Shown here: positions 12,417 through 33,600 of the stretch, piece after piece | Layout of the letters: every line of letters begins with the position of its first letter | How positions within the stretch are numbered: the stretch's first letter is position 1 | Origin: Tetracentron sinense | Lineage: Eukaryota > Streptophyta > Magnoliopsida > Trochodendrales > Trochodendraceae | Direction of reading: 5' to 3' | DNA length: 64,000 nucleotides | NCBI GenBank assembly: GCA_015143295.1 | Contig: CM026554.1 | Location: forward strand, 26,257,215-26,321,214 | Notes under the pieces: generated by a model | Told to the model about the DNA's origin: nothing | Seen by the model: only the letters and a program-made list of their open reading frames with translations | The model's database searches: none | Translations under genes and position numbers: made by a program

Positions 12417-15400
12417 ATGGATCCGGTTCCAAGTGGAAATCTGCCTCCTGGATTTGATTCATCTTCATGTCGCAGTGTGTGAGTGCTATATAGTAGTTCA
12501 TTTTTTCCTTTACTGTTTCTAAAGTTTCTTTATGATTCTGTGCGTGTTGTGAACAGATTGGTATAAGTACCTTCTTTACTTTTAACTTTTGCAGTCTTCA
12601 CTTCTTATGATTTCATCTCTGGAACAGGCTTACTTGTTTGTGGGGTATTCTGTTACATTCATTTTTGTTATGTAGATCCTCAATCCACTACAAATAAGCA
12701 TGAATTGGCTGGAAGTGCTAATGATGTAGCATGATTATACTTTTATCCGCCATGTTGTTGGCAACTACTGTATTTACCTACTTATTAATCTGATAGCTTG
12801 ATGCTGATTCAGGTATGTAGGAAATATTCATTTCAATGTCACCGAGAGCCTTCTTGCAGAGGCTTTCCAGAGTGCAGGTCCTCTTGAAGGATGCAAGCTC
12901 ATTAGAAAAGAAAAGGTTTGATTCAATAATCAGCACTAAGCCCTTCTGTTCTTTTAGTATGCTCAGACTTTCTTTTCTTTAATGTCACACAATAAGATAA
13001 GCATCCACATTGGTCAGTTTATACTATTAAAGATGGTGATTCAAAATATGCATGTTTAACTACTTCAGTTTGTGGGTAAGTTGGCACCTTTCTTATTGTT
13101 TTTGGTATATTTTTAAGACTTCTATTTCATCTGACTATATTATTTGACAGAATGTTATATGAATATCTGATTTATTGATGAAGTCTTGGACATTGTTTCT
13201 TAGAACCACATATTGCTGTTTTATAGTTGTATACTTTGATTTGTCTGGTGTAAGATTGGTTCTTTGAAGGTTGCTCTGACTTCCCTTCCTACTACATGTA
13301 AAATTTATGAATGTAATCCTATTTGGATCGCCAATGAACATCGGAACAGGCTACAATATACATACTTTGTGTGAGGGACGGAGGGAGAGACTGCACTTGG
13401 TGTCCACGCTCCTTAGACCCGCTACGTCAATATTAACCCCCTAAGGTGAAGGGAGGGAACCTGTGCTCCACAGAGAGAGACCACACTTGCTGCCCGTGCT
13501 CCTTCGGCCTGCCATGTCAGTATTAAACCCCCCTAACGTTGATGCTTCCCCTCCTAGGCACACCAATGCCGGCTAGGGTTTTCATGCTCCTTGGCATGAT
13601 CCTTTCATTCCTTTGAACTAAACTGGGTCTCACTAGTAATCTTTGTCTATCCTTGTCCAATATCCATCCCGTCAAATGAATGCTTTACTTTGATTTGGTG
13701 ACCATTTGAGAAACATGGAAAGCATTTCTCTTATTGTCACATGATATAATCCAGAAATTCCAGTTTACATGTTTTGGGTCCTGTCACATGAGTAGAACTA
13801 CAGATGGCCTTAATGGTGAATTATGTTAATTCTCTTATTGTCACATGATATAATCCAGAAATTCCAGTTTACATGTTTTGGGTCCTGTCACATGAGTACA
13901 GACTACAGATGGCCTTAATGGTGAATTATGTTAAAATGTTTTGGGTCCTGTCACATGAGTACAGACTACACAATTTAGTGATTTTTTATCTGCAAAAAGC
14001 TTCTTAAAAGAACATGAGGGATATCTAGTTTTTAGAATCACTAATTATCACGTAGACTCATGCATACACTGCAATTTATTTGCTGATTTTGCAAATTTTC
14101 CATCCTTTTGATGCTTAGATTGTTTTATTGATTTATCATTGCAGTCATCTATTGCCTTTGTGGACTACCATGATCGAAGGTCTGCAGCTCTTGCGATAAT
14201 GACATTGCATGGACGACAACTGTAAGAATACCCTTTTTTGCATCAGGCGTGATAGGTTTGGTGCCTGTTTGGATGTGGATTTATCAACTTTGGTACTGTA
14301 GTGTAAATGTGAAACACTCATTTTGTTTGTTAAGGCGCGCGCCTAAGCTGAAAGTCTTTGCAACCAAAGTGAGCTGAGGAGCTGAATGACATGACAGCAC
14401 TACTAATTGAGTGCAGGGGACCGGCCCTGAGAAACTTATCAATGTCCAAAGCCCTCTATAAATAAAATTGATTTTTGGCCAACTTTTCCTAATTGGCATG
14501 TTGAGCTTTACCATGTTATTTTCCAAAGCATTGATAGGACCAATTTCTTGTTCAAATGTGCTGATTACCAGTTTGACAGTTTAAGTTTGCCACTTAGATG
14601 GTTCAAACAAGATCTTCATATTATCGTCCTTCAGTGGTGGTTTCCTTATGCTTCTCATTGATCATATTTTGATTTATTCTATTTGCAGTTATGGTCAGGC
14701 AATTAAGGTGAATTGGGCATATGCCAGTGGCCAGAGAGAGGATACTTCAGGTTACTATTAGCTTCCATCATTTTAAACTTGTTGTTCCTTTTGTTGCTTG
14801 TCGACTGTTCTTTTCCCCTATGGTTTCATGATACTAGCATTTATTGCGTCTTTATGCTCATCAGCTCACTTCAATGTTTTTGTGGGCGATCTGAGTCCTG
14901 AGGTTACCGACGCAACTCTATTTGCATGCTTCTCGGTCTATCCTAGTTGTTCGTAAGTTCCTCACTGCTTTCGAGATTTCTTATTATTTTATTTTACAAG
15001 TGTAATGTCTTCAAAATGACCTATGTTGCACTGGTATGGTTTTTTTTTTTTTTTTAATCGGTAAACAAGCTATATTATAAATAGTAGATCAAGAACAAGA
15101 GGGGCTCAAAAGAAAAAAGAAGAGTTTACAAGCACATAAACTCAAAGCAACATATCAAGCATGCCGAGCATGCCTTCCAGACCCTCCACCTCCATAAGAT
15201 CGACAATCAATATAATATCGCATTGATATCCTCCCCATCAATTCGGAGCCCTGCCCACTGTAATACAACCAACCAGATGTGCTCACAAATGCGAGAGGGG
15301 GGCGAAGAGGTGTTTTCAAACACCCTAAGGTTCCGTTCTTTCCATATCATGCATGATGCTGCCCCCGAGTGAACCTCCCATAATACCTTGCGCGCCCCCA

Positions 15401-18400
15401 CCACACTAACCTGAAGCCAACTAGATAAGAAGTTGTGAAAGGAAGAGGGAAAGACCCAGTCCACCCCTATGTAGGAGAGGAAAAAGCCCCATAAACCAAA
15501 CACAGCAGGACATTGTAAGAGCAAGTGGTCCATGGACTCTTCCGCTTGGAGACACATATAACACCGGTTAGCCATCCTCCACTCTCTATGGTGTAAATGT
15601 TCACACGTGAGGATCTTATTCAATGATGCTTTGAAGGAAACAGACCCGAGGATATAGGACAAAGAGACTGTAAAAATGATCTTACTGAGAATCGACCATG
15701 GTTGCTTCCAGACCAAACCCGTCTATCCCAGACATCCGACCATGGTGAAAATTGGCTAAGGTGAGCCAACAAGCGCACCATTTAATCGATTTCCCAATCA
15801 TTCAATCCACGCCGCAACTTCGGACCCCACCCCACCCCCTTTCCCTAATGCTCAAAATACTCCCCTACTAGAGCCCCTCTATTTGTAGCTAATGAGAATG
15901 TGCCCAAACTCATTTTGGAGCCCGTTTGCACTACACCATACATCTTTCCAAAATCTCACCTCTAAACCATTCCCCACAAGAAATTGGAACTTAGGCACAA
16001 CCAAATTGGCAGTTGCCATGATACCCTTCGAGAACCACATGCCATGCGGACCTCTAACCTCGCGCGGGATCCAACACGAAGACTCCATATTTCACTACAA
16101 TCACCTCCCGCCACAAACTAGTCCTCTCAGCCCCAAATCTCCAAATCCATTTCCCTAATAAGGCCTTGTTGACTTTGGCCAAGGACTCAACGTTGTTTCC
16201 AATCCACCAGGTGGTACTTAAAAGTCTCCACCTTCTCGTGCCAAAGAAACTCCCTTTGCAATCTCAAGGGACGTGGCCATAGACCTAGGCATGGTCAGGA
16301 TGGATATGTAGAATGTCGGGAGACTGCTGAGGGTGCTATGAATGAGGGTCAACTTTCCTCCCTTGGATAGAAAGTGTGACTTCCATTCTACCAACTGATT
16401 TGCAAACCGCTTTAACATTGGTGCCCAAAACGCCTTAGCCTTGAACCTAGCGGCATTCTAGCGGCATTCCCAAGTAAACGGATGGAAGGGAATCCACTTT
16501 ACAATCCAAACAGGCGGCAAGCTGGTCTATGTCTGGGATCTCACCTACACTTACGATCTCGGACTTAGCGAAGTTGACTCGTAGACCGGACACCACTTAA
16601 AAGAACCCAAGGAGACACCCGATATTGAGTAACTGGCGGGATGATGCTTTGCAAAAAATTAGGGTATCGTCCGCAAATTGAAGGTGAGAAATATGCAACT
16701 GGTCCTGCCCAATCGTAATACCCTCAAATACCGACCCCTCCGCTCTAGACAACATTTGGCTTAGAGCCTCCGAAATGATAACAAAGAGAAAAGGGGAGAG
16801 TGGGTCGCCCTGCCGTAGGTCCCTTGAGCTCGGGAAATAGCCCAATTGAACTCCCGTTGAGAATAATAGAGAAAGAAGTCGAGGAGATACACGACCTGAT
16901 CCACAACCTCCACTTTGCCCCAAAACCCATCCTCCGAAGGGCATTCTCCAAGAGGCTCCAATTAACGTGGTCGTAAGCTTTCTCCATTTCAACTTTACAA
17001 AGGATTCCAGGAGACTTGGATCGAATGCGTAATCGAGGCATTAATTGGCTATTAGGATCCCATCTAGAATTTGGCACCCCCCCACAAATGCTCCCTGTTG
17101 CGGGGATATGATCGAGGGCATCACTCTCTGGAGCCTAGCGGCCAGGACCTTTGATAGAATTTTGTAAACGCTATCCACCAGGCTAATAGGGCGAAAGTCC
17201 TGAGGCTCAACAACACCCTCCTTTTTGGGGATCAACACTACAAAAATATGGTTGAACACTATCAAATTTCCCTGTAATGAAGATTCCTTCATCACCTTCA
17301 AGAGATTGCCCCCCACTATCGCTCAACATTCCCTATAGAACTCTATGGAGAACCCATCCGGCCCACGGGCCTTGTCCCCTGAATCACTCCCAACACCTCC
17401 GAAAATGGCCCTTCCAAAGAGGTGCTTTGCTTGAGGAATAGACCCTCAAACTGAAGGCCATCCAGTGTGGGACGCCAACTCTCCCTCTCACCATACAATT
17501 CCTTATAATAAGAGAAAACACAATCCTCAATGTCCTTGGGACTCTCCAACCAAACCCCGTCCACCTTGAGTCTAGAGATGAAATTTCTTTTTCTAATGAA
17601 ATTTGTCACACGTTCAAAGAATTTGGTGTATCAGTCCCCCTCTTTAAGCCACCTTATTCATGCCTTTTGTTTGCAACTGATCTCCTTTAGGGTAAGCATG
17701 GACAAATATTCCAACTTCTTTGCCTCTTTGACTCGGATGTCAGCATTTGTTAAGGTCTGAGAGTCGACTAACTCATCCAAGGCCGAGATCTCACTAAGTA
17801 TCCCATCTAGTCTCACCCGGATATTTCCGAACACCTCCTTATTCCAAACGTTCATTCTAGCTTTGACGGCTTTCAATTTGAGGCTAAATCTCGAACTTGC
17901 TGCCCCCATCCTTTTTTTACCCTCCAAACCTCAGCCACAAGACCTTGAAAACCCTCATCCTTGAGCCACATGTTTTCAAACTGAAATGGAGGACACCCCC
18001 CCCCCCCCTCTAAAACTCCTGGATTCTAACACTATAGTCTTGTGATCGGAAATAGGCCGCGGGAGAGAGGATTGGGTAAGGCTCGGGAAATGACTCTCCC
18101 AACCAGGGCTAACTAAGAATCTGTCGCTATAGTCTGATTGGACCCAAGTAAATTGGGTCCCCCTAAGCGGATAATCGATAAGCTTATGGCGACAAATAAA
18201 GCTCCCAAATCTTTTCATCTTGGTAGAAATCGCACTTCCCCCTTTTCTCTTCGCAGAGAACCTGGTGCAGTGGAAATCACCCCTGAAACACCAAGGTACA
18301 CCTCAATGAACACTCACGTCGTCCAATTCATTCCACAGAACTGTGTCATCTGATCCCCCAAAGGAACCGTATACCCCGGTAAAGACCCATCTCAGGTCAG

Positions 18401-21400: not shown

Positions 21401-22427
21401 CTAAAATATCAAGTGATCTAAATGATCAGTTTAAAAGAAAAGAAGAGAAAATCTCAAAACAATCAAACTATAATAAGAGATGACTCATGAAATAATAATT
21501 ATATATTTAAGGGTTTAAAGTCAGGACTCAGTGTTCAACATTTTATGCATAGCCTGCCCTTCTTTAGGTGTCTGTATACAACATGAGTTGTACAAAAAGG
21601 GTTATCTGTAGCATACTAATACGTACACTATACATTTTGCTAATGCCACCATGTATATCCCCACATCTCTAGGAGTTTAATATCAGGTCACAAAGCGTCC
21701 ATGTTATTCCTTAGTGTCGGCACCCGATAAACAAAAATTAAAAGTCGGTATGCACAAGATCCCCCAGGGACTTTTTGATGCTAATCTTTTTCTCTTCTTA
21801 TTCTTCATTTCACAGATGGAGGTCAGGAGTATACAAATGAGGAGGCCCCTGAGAACAATCCAGCATACACTACTGTCTATGTTGGCAACCTTGCTCATGA
21901 GGTACTTAAAAGATGAAGAAAAGCAAAGCAAAAAATGTTATTTTAGTGTTGCTTTCGCAGTATAATCTTCATATATTCAGGACACTGATAAGTTCTCTTT
22001 TATTTTCTTATTTCCCTGGAAATTTTCCATGGGCCCCAGGTTACTCAAGCTGAGCTTCATCGTCAGTTCCATGCCCTTGGGGCTGGGGTTCTTGAGGAAG
22101 TGCGCGTCCAGAGGGATAAAGGGTTTGGATTTGTCAGGTACCACACCCATGAAGAAGCAGCCTTGGCTATTCAGATGGCCAATGGGAGGATGGTCTGCGG
22201 AAAGTCCATGAAGGTAAGCGAGCCTTTACTAGAAGGTTTTTTTTCCATCTAATGGTGTCTTGTAATCTGAATTGTGTTGCATGCACATTTATGAAAAAGG
22301 AGTGTTAGCCTCACATTCCAGCACGGGGCATGGGAGCCACATGCCCTTCCCAAGAGGACATTTAGCAGCTGTCTTTAACAAGCCAGTACTAATAACGGGT
22401 GAGAGAGGTTATACATATATATACATA

Positions 22428-22512
<85 letters not shown>

Positions 22513-24660
22513 GGCAAGGTTGCCTATGCATTACATGTTTGAGTGACACGTGACTCCTTTGGGCCCACCAAAAAGCACATTTTGCGGGTCCCCCTTTCCT
22601 GACACATGGCAAAAAATCTGCCCAATCGGAGAAGTCTAGGCTGTAAGATCGAACGATGGAAACTTTAACTTAGGTTGTGTTGTATTAACCCTAGGGGTTA
22701 ATATTGACCAACTATGCTTAGTGGCGGACGTTTTTGATTTCCAATTAGACGGTCTATATATCCACAATTAGGCTGATTTTTTGTTACGTGTCAAGGAATG
22801 ATCAATAAAGATTCACGCATTTTTTGTATGTGGCAGTGTGGGCTCAAAGGAGTGCCACGTGTTGCTCAAACGCACAACACATAGGATGTTACCTATATAT
22901 ATATATATATAGACGAGTTAGTTTAGGGGTACTCCCTATTATTACTCCATGTTTTTACACCCCATCTAAACCGTTCTGTAAAAAACATCAATGGTCTAGA
23001 TTATGCATAAGTGGCATCCTTAGCAGAAACAATATAATTCCAAAATTAACCTTTCATTAAAAAAACAAATAAACACGTTCTCATCTTCCCCATTCTCGTT
23101 CTTTCTTATCTCTCTCTCATCTCCCTTCCTCCCAAATCCAAAGCCTTCCACCACTACCGCGACGATTCAAAATGGGGTATGGTAGACATCCCATTTTCGT
23201 TTCATCATTAGGTATGTAGACTTTTTTAAAACCCGAAAAATGAGGTCTCTAACAATGAATAATGATTTGGAGAAGAAAGCATTCTTTCTCCTGTTCTTCC
23301 TCACCCCATTATCCCTACAAAAGCTATCCAACAACCCAAAGCCAAATCCTGATCTCCGCTCGAATCCTTCTCAATCTCCCCCCACTGATCTCAAACCCTG
23401 TTCAGAAACGATATTCTGGGATGGTTTCGAGGCCCCTCTTTTATTTCCCCTTGGGCGCGGATCATTGTCCCTAGTTTCGCAACTCAGCTCGGGGAAATAC
23501 TCTTACTGCTTTTCATCAATTAGACCAAAACCAGTAGTCTTTTGTTTGGATCTCTAGCTGATTTGAAGCAAACAGATGGTGAAATCATATCAACCCCACT
23601 AGTTAAAAATCCATCTCAACCATCATTTTATTATCTATCTCTTGAAGGGATTATTGTAGGATACACTCTCCTACCCATTTCAAGATCTGCATTTGCAGTC
23701 CAAGGAGATGGGAGTGGTGGCCTAATCATAGATTCTTGTACCACCTTTACATATCTAAAAGATTGTGGTTTTGAAATACTCAAAAGAGAGTTTGCCTAGC
23801 AGATGGATCTTCTGGTGGACAATTCGGACTATACAGGATTCGATTTGTGCTTCCTCTTGCCGTCGAATACTTCAGCGGTAGAGGTTCCCAAGTTAATATT
23901 TCATTTCCGAGGTGCCGATTTGGAATTACTGGTTGTTAATTACATGATAGCAGATTTTAGTATGGGGGTGATTTGCTTGGCAATGGGGGGATCCAGGGGA
24001 ATGCCAATCTTCAGGAACAGGTAACAACAGAACATGAGAGCGTTAGACATTCAAAAAGGAACATGGATTCGTTATCATCAATAGCCGGGGCGGATGTTTC
24101 TAGGTTCCAAATCTTGATTAGAATGTTTCTTTCTGGGTGGTGGTGGTGGAGACTTTGGATTTGGGGGGCAGAGAGAGAGAGATGAGAACGTATTTGTTTT
24201 TTGTTTTTAAATAAAAGGTTAATTTTGGAATTATATTATTTCTGTTAAGGATGCCACCTATTCGTTTTCTAGACCATTGACATTATTTGAAGAATGGTTT
24301 AGATAGGGTGTGAAAACAGGGAGTAAGAATTGGGAGTACCCCTAGACTGGCTCTCTCTCTCTCTCTAAATATGTATATATGAGTGTTACTAATGTTCACT
24401 ATGTTAGTGAACTTAGTAACCTTCACCAAGACATTTTAACCATTATATTAATTATCAAACTCAGTAAAGTTGAGGGTAGTAGTCATTTCATAGACCACCA
24501 GTCATTAAATCAGAAGAAAATATTTCTTGTCTCCCCTATTTAACAAATTATTCCCTAAGAAAGTACCAAAGCACCCTTATCTTTAATAGAATGGTATTTA
24601 TATAGGGGTCAAAAAAACTAGTGAAGGTTAACAAATTCATTAGTCTTAGTGAACGATAGC

Positions 24661-24710
<50 letters not shown>

Positions 24711-25754
24711 TCTTCTGGTATTAGGTACAAACCTTTCCGATTCAAGAGCAAGTCGTCAACCTGAAATGTGCGCTTGCAGTCCTGAAAATCTAACAATGCT
24801 AATTGTCATTAACTTCAAAAGGTAAAAGTCTAAAGGGGAATCTCCACTAAACATTGAGATCCATCTCATATAAATTTTTTCACGGCTTAATGAATGAGAG
24901 AGCTGGGAAAGAAAAAAGATATGGGAAGGGATCAAGATGAACATTTTGACAAGTAAAGAAGAAAAACCATCTGAAATAGAGTAAGAGTAGAAAGGTGGTG
25001 ACCCTGCAAAAGAAAGTGGGGAGGAATCAGGCAAGTTGCTTACAGGAAGTTGGTGAGTGATAGGGGTTTTTAGCCCAGGAATGGAGAGCTTGAGCTCATT
25101 AATAGCTTATTGCTCTTCATGATCTCTAAAATCTTTTTTAACTGGTTTCATCTGTCACAAACACTGGCTGGAAGAGAGAGCCACAAATCCTCTTGAGAAG
25201 GGCGCGCAGCCCCACAACTAGTTAGGGGCGTGTGTCTAATATTCCTCTAAGAAAATAAATTTAAAATAAAAATAATACTGATGTTCAAGTTGATTTATCC
25301 CAGTTTTATCTCCTAGATGACCTGGAAGATAACACTCTCAATGTTAGGAATGCTATTTAATGGTTGTTAATGTCTTAGTCATAATGGTAGTGAGGACTAA
25401 ATATTGTCCGATGAAGAAAACATGGGTGGTTTGTGCTTGCAGTGTTCATGGGGTAGCAAGCCAACTCCTCCAGGGACCGCATCAAACCCACTACCACCAC
25501 CATATCAGATCCTTCCGACTCCTGGCATAAACCAGGGATACGCTGCTGCGGATCTGTTGGCTTATCAACGTCAACTTGCCTTAAACCAGGCCGCTGGATC
25601 TGGCCTCTCGGGCCAGGCTCTTTTGCAGATGGCTGGACAGCATGGCCTTGCCGCTCCCCAGGCTTCTAGAGGTTCGAATTCTGTTGGTTCCCAGGGCATG
25701 TATGATGGTTATCCAAACAACTCGTCAGGTCAGCATTACATGTACTATCAGTGA
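12417..25754 (+). CDS. UBP1: UBP1-type oligouridylate-binding protein (three RRMs), 11 exons
   Basis: Exons: 12417-12478, 12813-12915, 14145-14221, 14689-14750, 14865-14952, 20432-20507, 20818-20848, 20953-21072, 21816-21901, 22040-22213 and 25443-25754. All introns are GT-AG. The joined frame is 1191 bases, 396 residues plus TGA, with no stop. RRM1 (about residues 21-94) has RNP2 VYVGNI and RNP1 [11 protein letters not shown]2 (about 105-182) has VFVGDL and [11 protein letters not shown]3 (about 227-293) has VYVGNL and KGFGFVRY. Linkers [15 protein letters not shown] and [16 protein letters not shown], and the tail [11 protein letters not shown]...[17 protein letters not shown], are diagnostic of plant UBP1, a TIA-1-like protein. 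In other plants such proteins bind U-rich RNA, promote splicing of weak U-rich introns, stabilise mRNA, and join stress granules. The ATG sits right after a splice acceptor, and the family's Gln-rich N-terminus is absent, so the true start is probably in an upstream exon. The RRM1 RNP1 lacks its usual Gly. Introns 5 and 10 carry transposons. Confidence 0.95.
13385..13550. repeat. Diverged tandem duplication in UBP1 intron 2
   Basis: Two similar blocks start at about 13385 (GAGAGACTGCACTTGG) and 13472 (GAGAGACCACACTTGC). Both run through ..GCTCCTT..CC..GTCA.TATTAA.CCCCC. They are clearly related but diverged, so this is an older duplication. Its origin, perhaps from a small retroelement, is unknown. 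Confidence 0.6.
13726..13971. repeat. 104-bp tandem repeat, about 2.4 copies, UBP1 intron 2
   Basis: Units begin TTCTCTTATTGTCACATG at 13726 and 13830. A third, partial copy of the middle part (ATGTTTTGGGTCCTGTCAC) starts near 13936. Units 1 and 2 differ by about two bases, so the array is young. It lies fully inside intron 2 (12916-14144). Confidence 0.9.
15040..19620 (-). mobile_element. LINE inserted antisense in UBP1 intron 5
   Basis: The element reads from about 19620 down to a T16 run (15040-15055) on the + strand, its poly(A) tail. In order it shows: the C-terminal part of ORF1 (frame 19609-18851); the endonuclease (18680 to about 17980), with a start resembling [15 protein letters not shown], then [15 protein letters not shown] and SDHKTIV; a linker (17927-17343) with ..[19 protein letters not shown]; reverse transcriptase (17316-16597) with [38 protein letters not shown] and [12 protein letters not shown]; the thumb region (16418-16218); and zf-RVT (15716-15207) with [19 protein letters not shown] and [13 protein letters not shown]. 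Many frameshifts break ORF2. A 9-bp CCTATGTTG match on both sides (about 15020 and 19713) is too short to call a target duplication. The insertion expands intron 5 to 5479 bp without touching the splice sites. Confidence 0.9.
22411..22509. repeat. Compound (TA)n-(GT)n-(GA)n microsatellite
   Basis: Runs of TA/CATA, then GT, then GA follow each other directly at the left edge of an inverted-repeat element in UBP1 intron 10. Predicted reading frames across it are artefacts of the repeat. Confidence 0.95.
22510..22896. mobile_element. MITE-like element, inverted repeats of about 65 bp
   Basis: The left end starts ATAGGCAAGGTTGCCTATG and continues TTTGAGTGACACGTGACTCC then TTTGGGCCCAC. The reverse complement of the right end gives ATAGGTAACATCCTATG, TTTGAGCAACACGTGGCACTCC and TTTGAGCCCAC, aligned with small gaps. 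The element is about 387 bp, AT-rich inside and non-coding, as expected of a MITE. The outermost 20 bases of the left end form their own palindrome (CATAGGCAA/TTGCCTATG). Microsatellite DNA on both sides hides any target duplication, so the superfamily is open; long repeats make a Mutator-like origin possible. Confidence 0.8.
22915..24353. mobile_element. Pack-type DNA transposon with long inverted repeats and captured gene fragment
   Basis: The ends are long inverted repeats. Left, 22915-23087 and on to about 23160: GAGTTAGTTTAGGGGTACTCCC, CACCCCATCTAAACC, CAATGGTCTAGA, GGCATCCTTAGCAGAAA, ATAATTCCAAAATTAACC, CGTTCTCATC, then CCAAATCCAAAG. Right, 24136-24353, read on the other strand: GAGCCAGTCTAGGGGTACTCCC, CACCCTATCTAAACC, CAATGGTCTAGA, GGCATCCTTAACAGAAA, ATAATTCCAAAATTAACC, CGTTCTCATC, CCAAATCCAAAG. 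Between them lies a broken aspartyl protease fragment (23240-24090). No transposase is present, so the element is non-autonomous. Repeats of about 170-240 bp around a host-gene fragment are the hallmark of Pack-MULEs, but the 9-bp target duplication expected of that group is not visible, so the superfamily is unproven. It sits in UBP1 intron 10 between two smaller inverted-repeat elements. Confidence 0.85.
23240..24090 (+). pseudogene. Captured nepenthesin-type aspartyl protease fragment
   Basis: The fragment covers the middle and C-terminal part of a plant A1 (nepenthesin-like) aspartyl protease. In order it shows [20 protein letters not shown] (near 23452-23515), [77 protein letters not shown] and [17 protein letters not shown]. 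The second catalytic motif, normally DSGTT, reads DSCTT (about 23728-23742). The N-terminal half with the first catalytic Asp is absent. A frameshift near 23545, a TAG at 23797-23799, and another frameshift near 24025, after which QQNM..LDIQKG continues the homology, make it non-coding. It has the UBP1 orientation, but splice sites bypass it in the gene model. Confidence 0.88.
24388..24660. mobile_element. MITE-like element, inverted repeats of about 45 bp
   Basis: The left end CTAATGTTCACTATGTTAGTG followed by AACTTAGTAACCTTCACC matches the reverse complement of the right end, CTATCGTTCACTAAGACTAATG then AATTTGTTAACCTTCACT. The interior is AT-rich and non-coding, and the element is about 273 bp. 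It lies between (CT)n and (TA)n-(GA)n microsatellites, which prevents recognition of a target duplication. Confidence 0.75.
24661..24704. repeat. (TA)n-(GA)n microsatellite
   Basis: A TA run followed by a GA run at the right edge of the neighbouring MITE, inside UBP1 intron 10. Confidence 0.95.
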
Positions 25755-29504: not shown

Positions 29505-32500
29505 TCAGCCTCTGTTAACCAACCTGACATTACCACATCCTGCTTTATCAAGAGTAAGAAGAGCTTTAAGCCTAGGAGGTTGATCCCGATGAGAAAAAAA
29601 TTCTCCTGAAGATTGAGTACAACACCCTTGGTTAGCAAGGAAATCAGCTACCATGTTAGCTTCTCTATATATGTTAATAGAAGACGAAATATTTATCACT
29701 TGAGATATCTTCTTGTTCCAATACCAAACATTCCAAGGATGACTCAAAGAACCCTTCCAAGCTTCAACAAGATTTTTAGCATCAGATTCAACCTCAACTT
29801 GAGGGAAACCAAGCTTTTGACAAAGAGAGAGACCATCCAAAAGAGCTCTAGATTCTGCAGTATAATTAGAACAATTCCCATAAAAAGCATAAAAGCATGC
29901 AATCATCTCTCTAGAATGGTCTCGAATGACACCTCCTCCACCTGCTAAGCCTGGATTACCTTTTGAAGCTCCATCCACATTCAATTTAATTCTACCCTAC
30001 AAAGGTCTAATCCATTTGACAACAGAAATAATGAGTCTTCGCCGAAGAACAGGAGGAGATAAGCAATTTATAATTGAAAGATCCAAAGGTTTTTTATAGG
30101 ATAAAGAACCTAGCTCCACCATCTATTTCTAAATTCTTGCAATAATCACATCAACTGGCTTACTCACATCTTTGAATCTACGAGAGCATCTTTCTTTCCA
30201 AATCTCCCAAATAATGATGAGGGGAAGAACAATAAGAATCGCATTATGATGTCTATCAGACACTCTAAACCATCGTATAAGTAAACATTGAATATTATCA
30301 CCGAGGTGGGAGCGAACAGAACAAAGATTACTAAAAAAATCTCCATATCTTACCTGCAATATCACTATGAATTAAAAGATGAGATAAGGTTTCAATATTA
30401 CCTTGAGAACAACATGAACAATGACTAACTAGTAGGATTCCAACAGAATGGACCATATAATCAATAGGAACCGCACCATACATAACCTTAAATCCAAATA
30501 TCTGAATTTTTTTGGGTATAATATTAAACCAAACATTCCTGGACCAGTCTTTCTGCTGAGTAGAATATCTAAGAAAATCTCAGGCTGACTTAACAGAAAA
30601 TTTACCTTTAGGACCTAGTTTCCAAATGAAAGCATCTTCTTAATCGAAAGTAAAGAAACCTGCATTTCTAATATCAGTCCTAAGATAATCAGGTAAATAA
30701 TCAATAACGGGACTAAAGTCCCAACTTCCATTATTATCCAGCATATCTAAAATACAAGGGAAATTATGAGGAATAGAAGAAGAATACACTATAAGAGGAT
30801 CCTCTCCAAACCAACAATCTAACCAAAAATTAATTCGTGATCCATTGCCAATTAAAGCAATCGAATTATAGATTACATCTTTACAATATTTTATAATTTG
30901 TAACCAAGTTTTAGAGAAATTAAGTCTAGACGTAGCAAACCAAAAATGATTAAATTGGAATTTAGATTTAAAGAATTTAGACCACAGATTTTTAGATTGG
31001 TAAAGATTCTAAGCTTGTTTAATTCTAAAAGCAGAGGAAAATTCATGCATTTTCCTAATGCCTATACCACCTTCCAAAAGGGGAAGGGCACAAGTATTCC
31101 AATTTATCCAATAACCTTTTTTGGAATCACTTCTATTGTTCCAAAAGAATTTAGCCATAGATCTATCTATAAGGTTAGAGATAGCTTTTGGAACATGGAT
31201 TCCAGCAAGAAGATGAATAGGAATAGAAGACAAAACATGTTTAATAAGAATGAGTCTTCCACCAACAGATAAGAACTTACCTTTCCACCCCTCAATTTTA
31301 TGAAGAATTTTATCAACTAAAGAATTAAAGTAAACATTTTTTAGCCTACCTTTATAAAGAGGGACACCAAGATAAGTGAAAGGAAAACTCTTATTAGGAA
31401 TCCCTATCCAATTAAAAATAGCCTGTTTTCTAGACCTATTCATTTTAGAAGAACAATAGTAAGCACTTTTAGCCTTATTTAGCAACTGACCCGAAGAAGT
31501 CTCATAAGCATGAATAAATTCAAAAAAAAATTTATGTTATATTTTTTACCATTGCAAAAAATTAAGGTGTCGTCTGCAAAAGAAGATGGGTAATAGGGAA
31601 ACCATACCTGCCTAGTTTATAATTTAGAGAAAGACTTTCAGAAGTAGCTTTTAAACCCCTGCTAAGAACTTCTTCAGCCATAATAAAAAGAGTAGGAGAG
31701 AGGGGATCACCTTGACGAAGGCCACGCGAACTCTGAAAAAAGCACCTTGAAGACTCCCATTAATAATGATAGAAAAGGATTGGTTACATAGACAGCCATG
31801 AATCAATCTGGTAATTGCATAATTAAAACCCATCTTTTGAAGGACTATTATAAAGAAATTCCATTCCATACGATCATATGATTTAGACATATCAAGTTTG
31901 AAAATGATATTACCTCCCGGAGTAGGTCTATCAATATCCTGCACCACCTCTTGTGCTAAATTAATGTTGTCAGTAATATTTCTACCCTTTACAAATCCAC
32001 TTTGCTCTTCAGAAATAATCCTAGGCAATAATATACCTATTCTATCAGACAATAATCTCGATATCATTTTGTAAAGAAATTATAAAGGCTAATGGGTCTA
32101 AAATCAGAAAAGGATATAGGAGAACTACATTTGGGAATTAAAGCAATAGCAATAGCATTTATGGCTTTAGGAATGTCTGCATAAACAAAGAATGAAGTAA
32201 TAATATTTAAGAGATCATCCTTAATAATATCCCAACAAGAATGATAAAAGTTCCTCGAAAAGCTATCTGGACTAGGAGCACTATCTGTAAACATACTAAA
32301 ACCCACTTTTTTAATTTCATCCATGGTAGGAGAAATGGAAATCGCAATATTATCTTCTTCCAAAATTAAACAAGGAATATGATTAAGAAGATTTTGATCA
32401 ATATTGCAATTAGAAGAAGTTAAAAGATCTTTAAAATAAGAAACAACAGCATTACCAATGTCCTCTCTCGATTCCATCCAATTACCTTGAGAATCTTGAA

Positions 32501-33600
32501 TACGAGAGATACAGTTCTTACCTCTTCTAGAATTAGAAACCATGTGAAAGAATTTGGTATTGTTATCACCTTCTTGAATCCATTTAATACGGGACTTTTG
32601 TCTCCAGTAAATTTCTTCACATAAAAGAACAATTTGCATTTCATCCTTAAGGTTATTAAGATGAGTAGTTTATCAATATCCTAGGAATTTTGAAGTTCTT
32701 CTTCAATACTGCTAATTTGAAATTCAAAATCTTTAATTTTTTTGAAAATTATTGCCAAAAACGTTCTTATTCCAACTTTTAAGAGAAATCTTAAGTCTTT
32801 TAAGCTTGAGAAAAAAAGACATAAGCGGATTAGAGGAAATAGGAATATTCCAGGATTCAGAAACAACTCTAAAGAAATCAGGATGATGAATCCACATTTG
32901 TTGAAATTTAAAAGAGGATGGAATCCTAGAATTATCCTTAACAAAAGCAAAGCAAAGAGGAGAATGATCAGAAGCTAATCTAGATAGATGGGAAACCAAA
33001 GAAAAGGAGAAATTAAAACCCTAATCTGAACTCAATAAAACTCTATCTAAACGGGCATAAATACGATTTACACCTACCTGATTATTACACTGAGTGAATT
33101 TATTCTCAGTAAAGCCTGGATCCATCAAACCCAAGTCATTAATCATACCGTTAAAATCAGTGAGAGATTCCACATTGACATCCCTCCCTCCGAGCTTTTC
33201 ATCAGAGTTAGAAATAGCATTAAAATCGCCTCCAATGACACAAAGATCCATCCAGAGAGACTTTCGTTCCCTACTAGTACATTTAGCATAAATAAAAGCA
33301 CATCTGATGGAAGAAAAATTAAAAGAAGAGACATCTACTATAATCAATTGGTCAGAAAAAGAAACAAAAGAAACTTGAATTTGACTTTTCCAAACTAACC
33401 ATATCTTAGGATGGGCGAATGAAGAATCTAATAGATTATCCATTCCAATAAAAGAGCACACTTCCTGAAGAGAATTTAAATTTTTTTAGGTTCCATGATA
33501 GCAGCCAGCAAAATATTGTTAGATGAAATTTGCTACTGAATTCTAGTTTTAGAAGCGAAATTACCAATTCCTCGAATATTCCAAAGCAGAAAATTATTTA
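29505..33600 (-). pseudogene. LINE ORF2 (endonuclease-RT-RNase H), broken
   Basis: Pieces read in order from the right. The endonuclease begins FLLWNIRGIGN (about 33595), then CVIGGDFNAISNSDEKLGG, YARLDRVLLS and ASDHSPLCF (33461-32900). The linker and start of the polymerase follow, with KSRIKWIQEGDNNTKFFHMV and DFRPISLYN (32639-32064). The polymerase palm has SGFVKGRNITDNINLAQEV and FKLDMSKSYDRMEWNF (32067-31651) and FADDTLIF (about 31580). The thumb has FTYLGVPLYKGRLK (31485-31009). zf-RVT remnants lie near 30129-30365. RNase H has NVDGASKGNPGLAGGGGVIR and ESDAKNLVEAWKG (29984-29505). Four or more frameshifts and stops make it inactive. Confidence 0.88.

Follow-up and report, generated by a model that had tools for sequence, protein, structure and literature searches.

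The segment 22915-24353 of the window (the whole stretch of DNA analysed, 64,000 nts) is very probably a Pack-type Mutator-like element, non-autonomous and decayed, of the sort that targets microsatellites (MuTAnT/SaTar). It is a real but rather unexceptional representative of a known class of gene-capturing transposons, and unites in one object two known behaviours, gene capture as in Pack-MULEs and microsatellite insertion in non-nested rows as in SaTar and MuTAnT. The Pack-type reading, proposed in an earlier note on this DNA, is borne out by the arms, the gene fragment between them, a dispersed repeat family and a donor-like gene without arms. The superfamily is most likely Mutator-like, judging by the length of the arms, the 9-bp duplications of sister copies and the preference for microsatellites. 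The features of the locus are as follows.

22040-22213, plus strand: 3′ portion of the UBP1-type exon that precedes the intron; its open frame continues into the last exon
22214-25442, plus strand: intron of the UBP1-type gene, 3,229 bp (AAG/GTAAGC ... TTGCAG/TGTTC)
22510-22892, unstranded: first row element, a short inverted-repeat element of an unrelated repeat family (self inverted alignment)
22894-22911, unstranded: (TA)9 tract between the first row element and the Pack element
22915-23158, plus strand: left terminal inverted repeat, terminus GAGTTAGTTTAGGGGTACTCCC
23169-23282, plus strand: left subterminal sequence, common to other family members
23283-23449, plus strand: patchwork of short matches to other places
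23450-24037, plus strand: 3′ portion captured from an intronless nepenthesin-like aspartic protease gene, 84% identical to L011
23731-23739, plus strand: second catalytic motif, Asp-Ser-Cys for Asp-Ser-Gly
23797-23799, plus strand: premature TAG, also present in the C8 copy but not in the donor-like gene
24091-24138, unstranded: right subterminal sequence, 90% to the C8 copy (24115-24138, 92% to L024)
24139-24353, minus strand: right terminal inverted repeat, terminus (read inward) GAGCCAGTCTAGGGGTACTCCC
24351-24366, unstranded: (CT)8 tract at the right terminus
24380-24660, unstranded: third row element, a short inverted-repeat element of another repeat family (self inverted alignment)
25443-25754, plus strand: last exon of the UBP1-type gene

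Inverted ends of about 170-240 bp had been suspected, and alignment recovered them. An ungapped match of 84% over 155 nt joins 22915-23069 to 24199-24353 in inverted orientation (blastn E 2.5e-49 within the window) and, with gaps, extends to 23158 and 24139 (244 and 215 bp, 75%), the larger gaps falling at TC-rich stretches. The two arms had a local score of 223, while the best of 500 shuffles of 2-base blocks reached 30. For 500 pairs of the same geometry drawn from the window the mean score was 18; the two highest (154 and 135, starting at 22959 and 22968) overlap the element and the next was 28. The repeat match previously indicated at CCAAATCCAAAG is present but, since CCAAATCCAAAG lies inside the arms, what had been described as a blurred edge of the captured part is the inner end of the inverted repeat. 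Next to the left arm, the subterminal sequence matches other members of the family at 83% (L026, 23169-23256), 81% (L028, 23185-23282) and 76% (L013, 23178-23278). The (CT)8 tract at the right terminus is probably an expansion of the terminal GA; similar GA runs are seen beside other members. In line with the earlier note, a Pfam scan of the three plus-strand frames of the element (E <= 0.05) detected no transposase. A search of a plasmid collection with the element gave no match, and Rfam gave 0 matches at gathering scores on the window.

The ends are not single-copy; they belong to a dispersed family in the window's own genome (1.16 Gb, 1,479 contigs). The arm search returned at least 99 genome matches (40 of 367 candidates scored), and the 21-bp terminus GAGTCAGTCTAGGGGTACTCC gave 1,743 matches at two mismatches or fewer, against 0 for the reversed control. 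Among the first 100 of these 1,743 places, 48 are exact and the rest carry one mismatch; most of the latter read GAGTCAGTCTATGGG, a second subgroup, so the 1,743 matches mix subgroups. In the terminus of this second subgroup, GAGTCAGTCTATGGGTACTCC, ATGGG replaces AGGGG, and a related end was seen in L026 at 1567. Paired facing termini, chosen by hand, were found at 23 of the 33 arm-bearing loci examined, giving 24 paired elements with that of the window (lengths 330-1,715 bp). The other 10 loci have a single terminus and were not counted as paired. Of 10 further loci, taken at perfect termini, four had a second, facing terminus within the stretch examined that differed by 6 substitutions or fewer.

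Copies with the same repeats and other interiors, which the earlier note had proposed to look for, do exist, including one (L016) with a different gene fragment. Twenty interiors were scanned with Pfam, that of the window in the three plus-strand frames and 19 others in six frames; the scans were made without L015 and L022 (near-duplicates of L014 and L021) and without L023 and L029 (whose interiors measure 16 and 123 bp). No transposase family was detected in the 20 scanned interiors (E <= 0.05). Clear gene families were found in two of them, the protease in the window and an amine oxidase in L016 (PF01593, E 5.4e-6). As 18 of the 20 are without a clear family, the share of true gene capture in the arm family is uncertain. 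The amine-oxidase piece matches a C23 locus at 81% over 159 bp and, from its residues, is presumably of polyamine-oxidase type. In L016 574-1373 (C8:16219673-16220472), detectable homology starts beside the apparent exon start of the C23 gene. The other interiors gave weak matches to OCRE, bCoV_NAB, DUF3047, Neurobeachin, Prok-E2_D, Aa-Ago_N and CAP59_mtransfer (E 0.0009-0.033), those to DUF3047 and Prok-E2_D falling in L016. The alignments of L074 and L075 were junk and were left unused. L025 605-1564 (minus) and L030 1719-2450 (plus) have a long similar reading in common, which may stem from a shared capture or be internal to the family. The MULE domain as such is abundant in the genome: 150 of 1,282 candidate matches were scored, and none of these 150 could be tied to the termini of the element.

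Mutator-like target duplications range from 8 to 11 bp (PMC5907723), and duplications of this size had been anticipated in the earlier note. This expectation held for sister copies. Exact 9-bp direct repeats at zero offset flank 6 of the 24 paired elements, four of the six being A/T-only. Outside simple repeats, the duplications read TATCTACAA (L026) and ATTATGTTT (L040), and a third, TTAACTGAA, came from one of the ten further loci (L065), where the facing terminus differs at 6 of 21 bases. It did not hold for the window copy, which shows no legible target duplication (TATATAGAC / TCTCTCTCT): it is flanked by (TA)9 then GAC on one side and by a CT run on the other, and a duplication is unreadable because these flanks are microsatellite. 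A preference for such sites was observed in the family as a whole. With at least four TA or GA units within 24 bp of the end as criterion, 33 of 44 ends lie beside TA/GA repeats, compared to 84 of 4,200 background 24-mers from the same loci (22 elements, L015 and L022 dropped). Both ends are beside microsatellites in 14 of these 22 elements.

Between the arms, the broken nepenthesin-like protease that had been proposed was recovered. Positions 23450-24037 encode the C-terminal half of the protein (PF14541, E 9e-19 with stops read as X); apart from a 4-bp deletion near 23510 the piece is colinear with L011, and it carries a frameshift as well as the premature TAG. The first catalytic Asp was said to be missing and DSCTT to stand in place of DSGTT. 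Both points were confirmed: no DTG motif was found in any forward frame of the element, and the second motif reads DSC. The latter is secondary decay, since DSG is found in the donor-like gene and also in the C8 copy. We infer that the piece cannot encode a protease and is without function. A search of solved structures with it returned two xylanase-inhibitor chains at E about 0.7 and was not useful. The protease is not the sole content of the element, whose interior is composite. Apart from the family match, a donor search with 23170-23455 found short matches only. In the patchwork, 23298-23349 matches C12 at 86%, 23347-23405 matches C3 and C1047 at 83%, 23352-23399 matches two places on C13 at 85%, and 23412-23448 matches the C8 copy at 85%.

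The earlier note also called for a donor protease gene. A donor-like intact gene, L011 (matching stretch C2:44853356-44853947, minus strand), is intronless over the piece and 84% identical to it. Its 496-codon stop-to-stop frame has DTGS and DSGTT, and in the part scanned it matches TAXi_N (1-176 of 176) and TAXi_C (2-146 of 161). The same gene is also present on the 53-kb contig C1339 (L012, 84%). A second homologue, L010 (77%), appears broken, with longest frames of 210 and 161 aa. The arms were not found in the stretches examined around the donor-like loci. L011 is not certain to be the exact donor; the actual source may be a paralogue that has since been lost.

A copy on C8 (L009) has part of the protease piece, together with the TAG stop and the changed AGGTAAC site of the window copy. 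The junction between protease and right arm is common to both, while beyond the right terminus the flank of L009 differs from that of the window. The left arm of L009 was not detected in the 5 kb examined, so L009 is regarded as a one-ended remnant. Over the window, C8, L011 and L010 sequences, 10 informative sites group the window with C8, and the two alternative groupings have 4 and 2. In terms of plain identity, the window is closer to L011 (0.848, 591 sites) than to C8 (0.825, 401 sites), and the single-capture reading therefore rests on the shared changes and the junction. These point to one capture, which would later have moved to at least two sites, C4 (window) and C8. The C8 copy has accumulated more changes and also contains an additional stretch, at about 2024-2182 of L009, which interrupts its protease sequence when compared with the window and donor-like copies.

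The element was placed by the earlier note in an intron of a UBP1 gene, in sense orientation, where it might be transcribed with the gene; the placement agrees with a GT at 22214, an AG before 25443 and the location of both the protease fragment and the UBP1-type gene on the plus strand. The name UBP1 is that of the earlier note and fits the family. When the host exons are joined, the frame stays open up to the terminal stop. The closest host paralogue, on C9, is 84% identical over 103 aa and matches the exon region 22040-22213 at 78% at the DNA level; its corresponding intron measures 356 bp, compared to 3,229 bp in the window. Host paralogues matched at 6 other places, and the three loci examined gave no match to the arms or to either of the neighbouring elements (E 1e-3). 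At the window locus, three elements stand end to end at 22510-24660, separated or bordered by TA, GA or CT tracts and each uninterrupted by the others: the array consists of non-nested, unrelated elements separated by microsatellites. The first row element has 66 genome matches including itself, several over nearly the whole unit, and the third has 49 including itself, many with identical unit edges.

Could the same structure have arisen otherwise? The old divergence (84%) and the decay would be in keeping with a pure genomic relic, that is, an old protease locus bordered by chance repeats. However, the ends are those of a dispersed family with paired termini, the closest paralogous intron, of 356 bp, is without the element, and an intact homologue exists on C2, so that we give this explanation practically no weight. 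A nested insertion, in which a truncated protease retro-pseudogene landed in an existing short inverted-repeat element, is very improbable, although not as much so. The donor-like gene is intronless over the piece and, for this reason, introns cannot exclude an RNA origin. Nevertheless, the piece is truncated on both sides and does not reach the stop codon of the donor, runs of A in 24038-24138 are of 5 at most, the C8 copy has the identical junction to the right arm, and 23283-23449 is without a protease match.

An origin as a composite, in which two short family elements flanked the protease fragment and then moved together with it, is a variant of the preferred explanation. We regard it as unlikely, but less so than the two others. 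This model has been proposed and tested for Pack-TYPE transposons in maize and rice (PMC8903248). It would gain support from rows of such elements at microsatellites. Against it, the window element has two termini only and none internal (at most 2 substitutions in the core), and the donor-like loci examined are without arms. Capture by a Pack-type Mutator-like element thus remains our preferred reading.

The element shares with Pack-MULEs and other Pack-TYPE transposons long inverted arms, a host-gene fragment between them with no transposase found, a composite interior and 9-bp duplications, seen here in sister copies (PMC8903248). Unlike them, the present family is mostly at TA/GA microsatellites (33 of 44 ends). 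SaTar elements are microsatellite-targeted non-autonomous MULEs from guayule and rice (PMC5907723). Like the elements here, they measure about 0.4-1.7 kb and have inverted arms and often (TA)n flanks, while some copies have target duplications instead, and they form non-nested arrays of unrelated elements (PMC5907723). In contrast, the guayule duplications are of 10 bp instead of 9 bp, and rSaTar1, 3 and 5 are called non-Pack-MULEs, whereas a gene fragment is carried here; the stem ‘captur’ has 0 occurrences in the main text of that report (PMC5907723). MuTAnT of Medicago truncatula resembles the present family in that it is a MULE inserting in (TA)n, has 9-bp duplications at sites other than perfect microsatellites, carries a run of GGGG at the end of its arms and has copies in introns or UTRs (PMC4486113). 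It differs in that its GGGG is the very end, while here GGGG comes after GAGTCAGTCTA, in that a putative autonomous partner is known, and in size, 90% of MuTAnT being 200-300 bp, unlike the elements here (PMC4486113). The combination of capture with microsatellite rows was not announced in the open-access titles and abstract openings surveyed, which is no proof of novelty.

The preferred reading gives a course of events, the order of which we infer. A MULE transposase encoded at another locus would recognise the ends of the element in trans. An ancestral copy would have taken nepenthesin-like protease DNA between its arms and, apparently, DNA from one or two other places. The loaded element would later have been copied or moved to at least two sites, on C4 and C8, as the shared changes and junction suggest. 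At C4 it would have inserted into a TA microsatellite in the UBP1 intron, beside two microsatellite-bordered elements, to give the non-nested row, after which the protease piece would have decayed (frameshift, stop and DSC). Tentatively, and with rather less confidence than not, gene capture may be recurrent in this microsatellite-seeking MULE family, with intronic TA tracts acting as docking sites for gene fragments in sense or antisense orientation. If so, fragments from different chromosomes would be stacked in transcribed genes, a targeted route to exon shuffling. If common, the arrangement would show delivery of captured fragments into introns with the host gene unbroken.

Elsewhere in the window, broken reading frames were noticed on the minus strand at 15207-17927 and 29505-33461; these resemble what we take to be LINE-type reverse transcriptase and RNase H.
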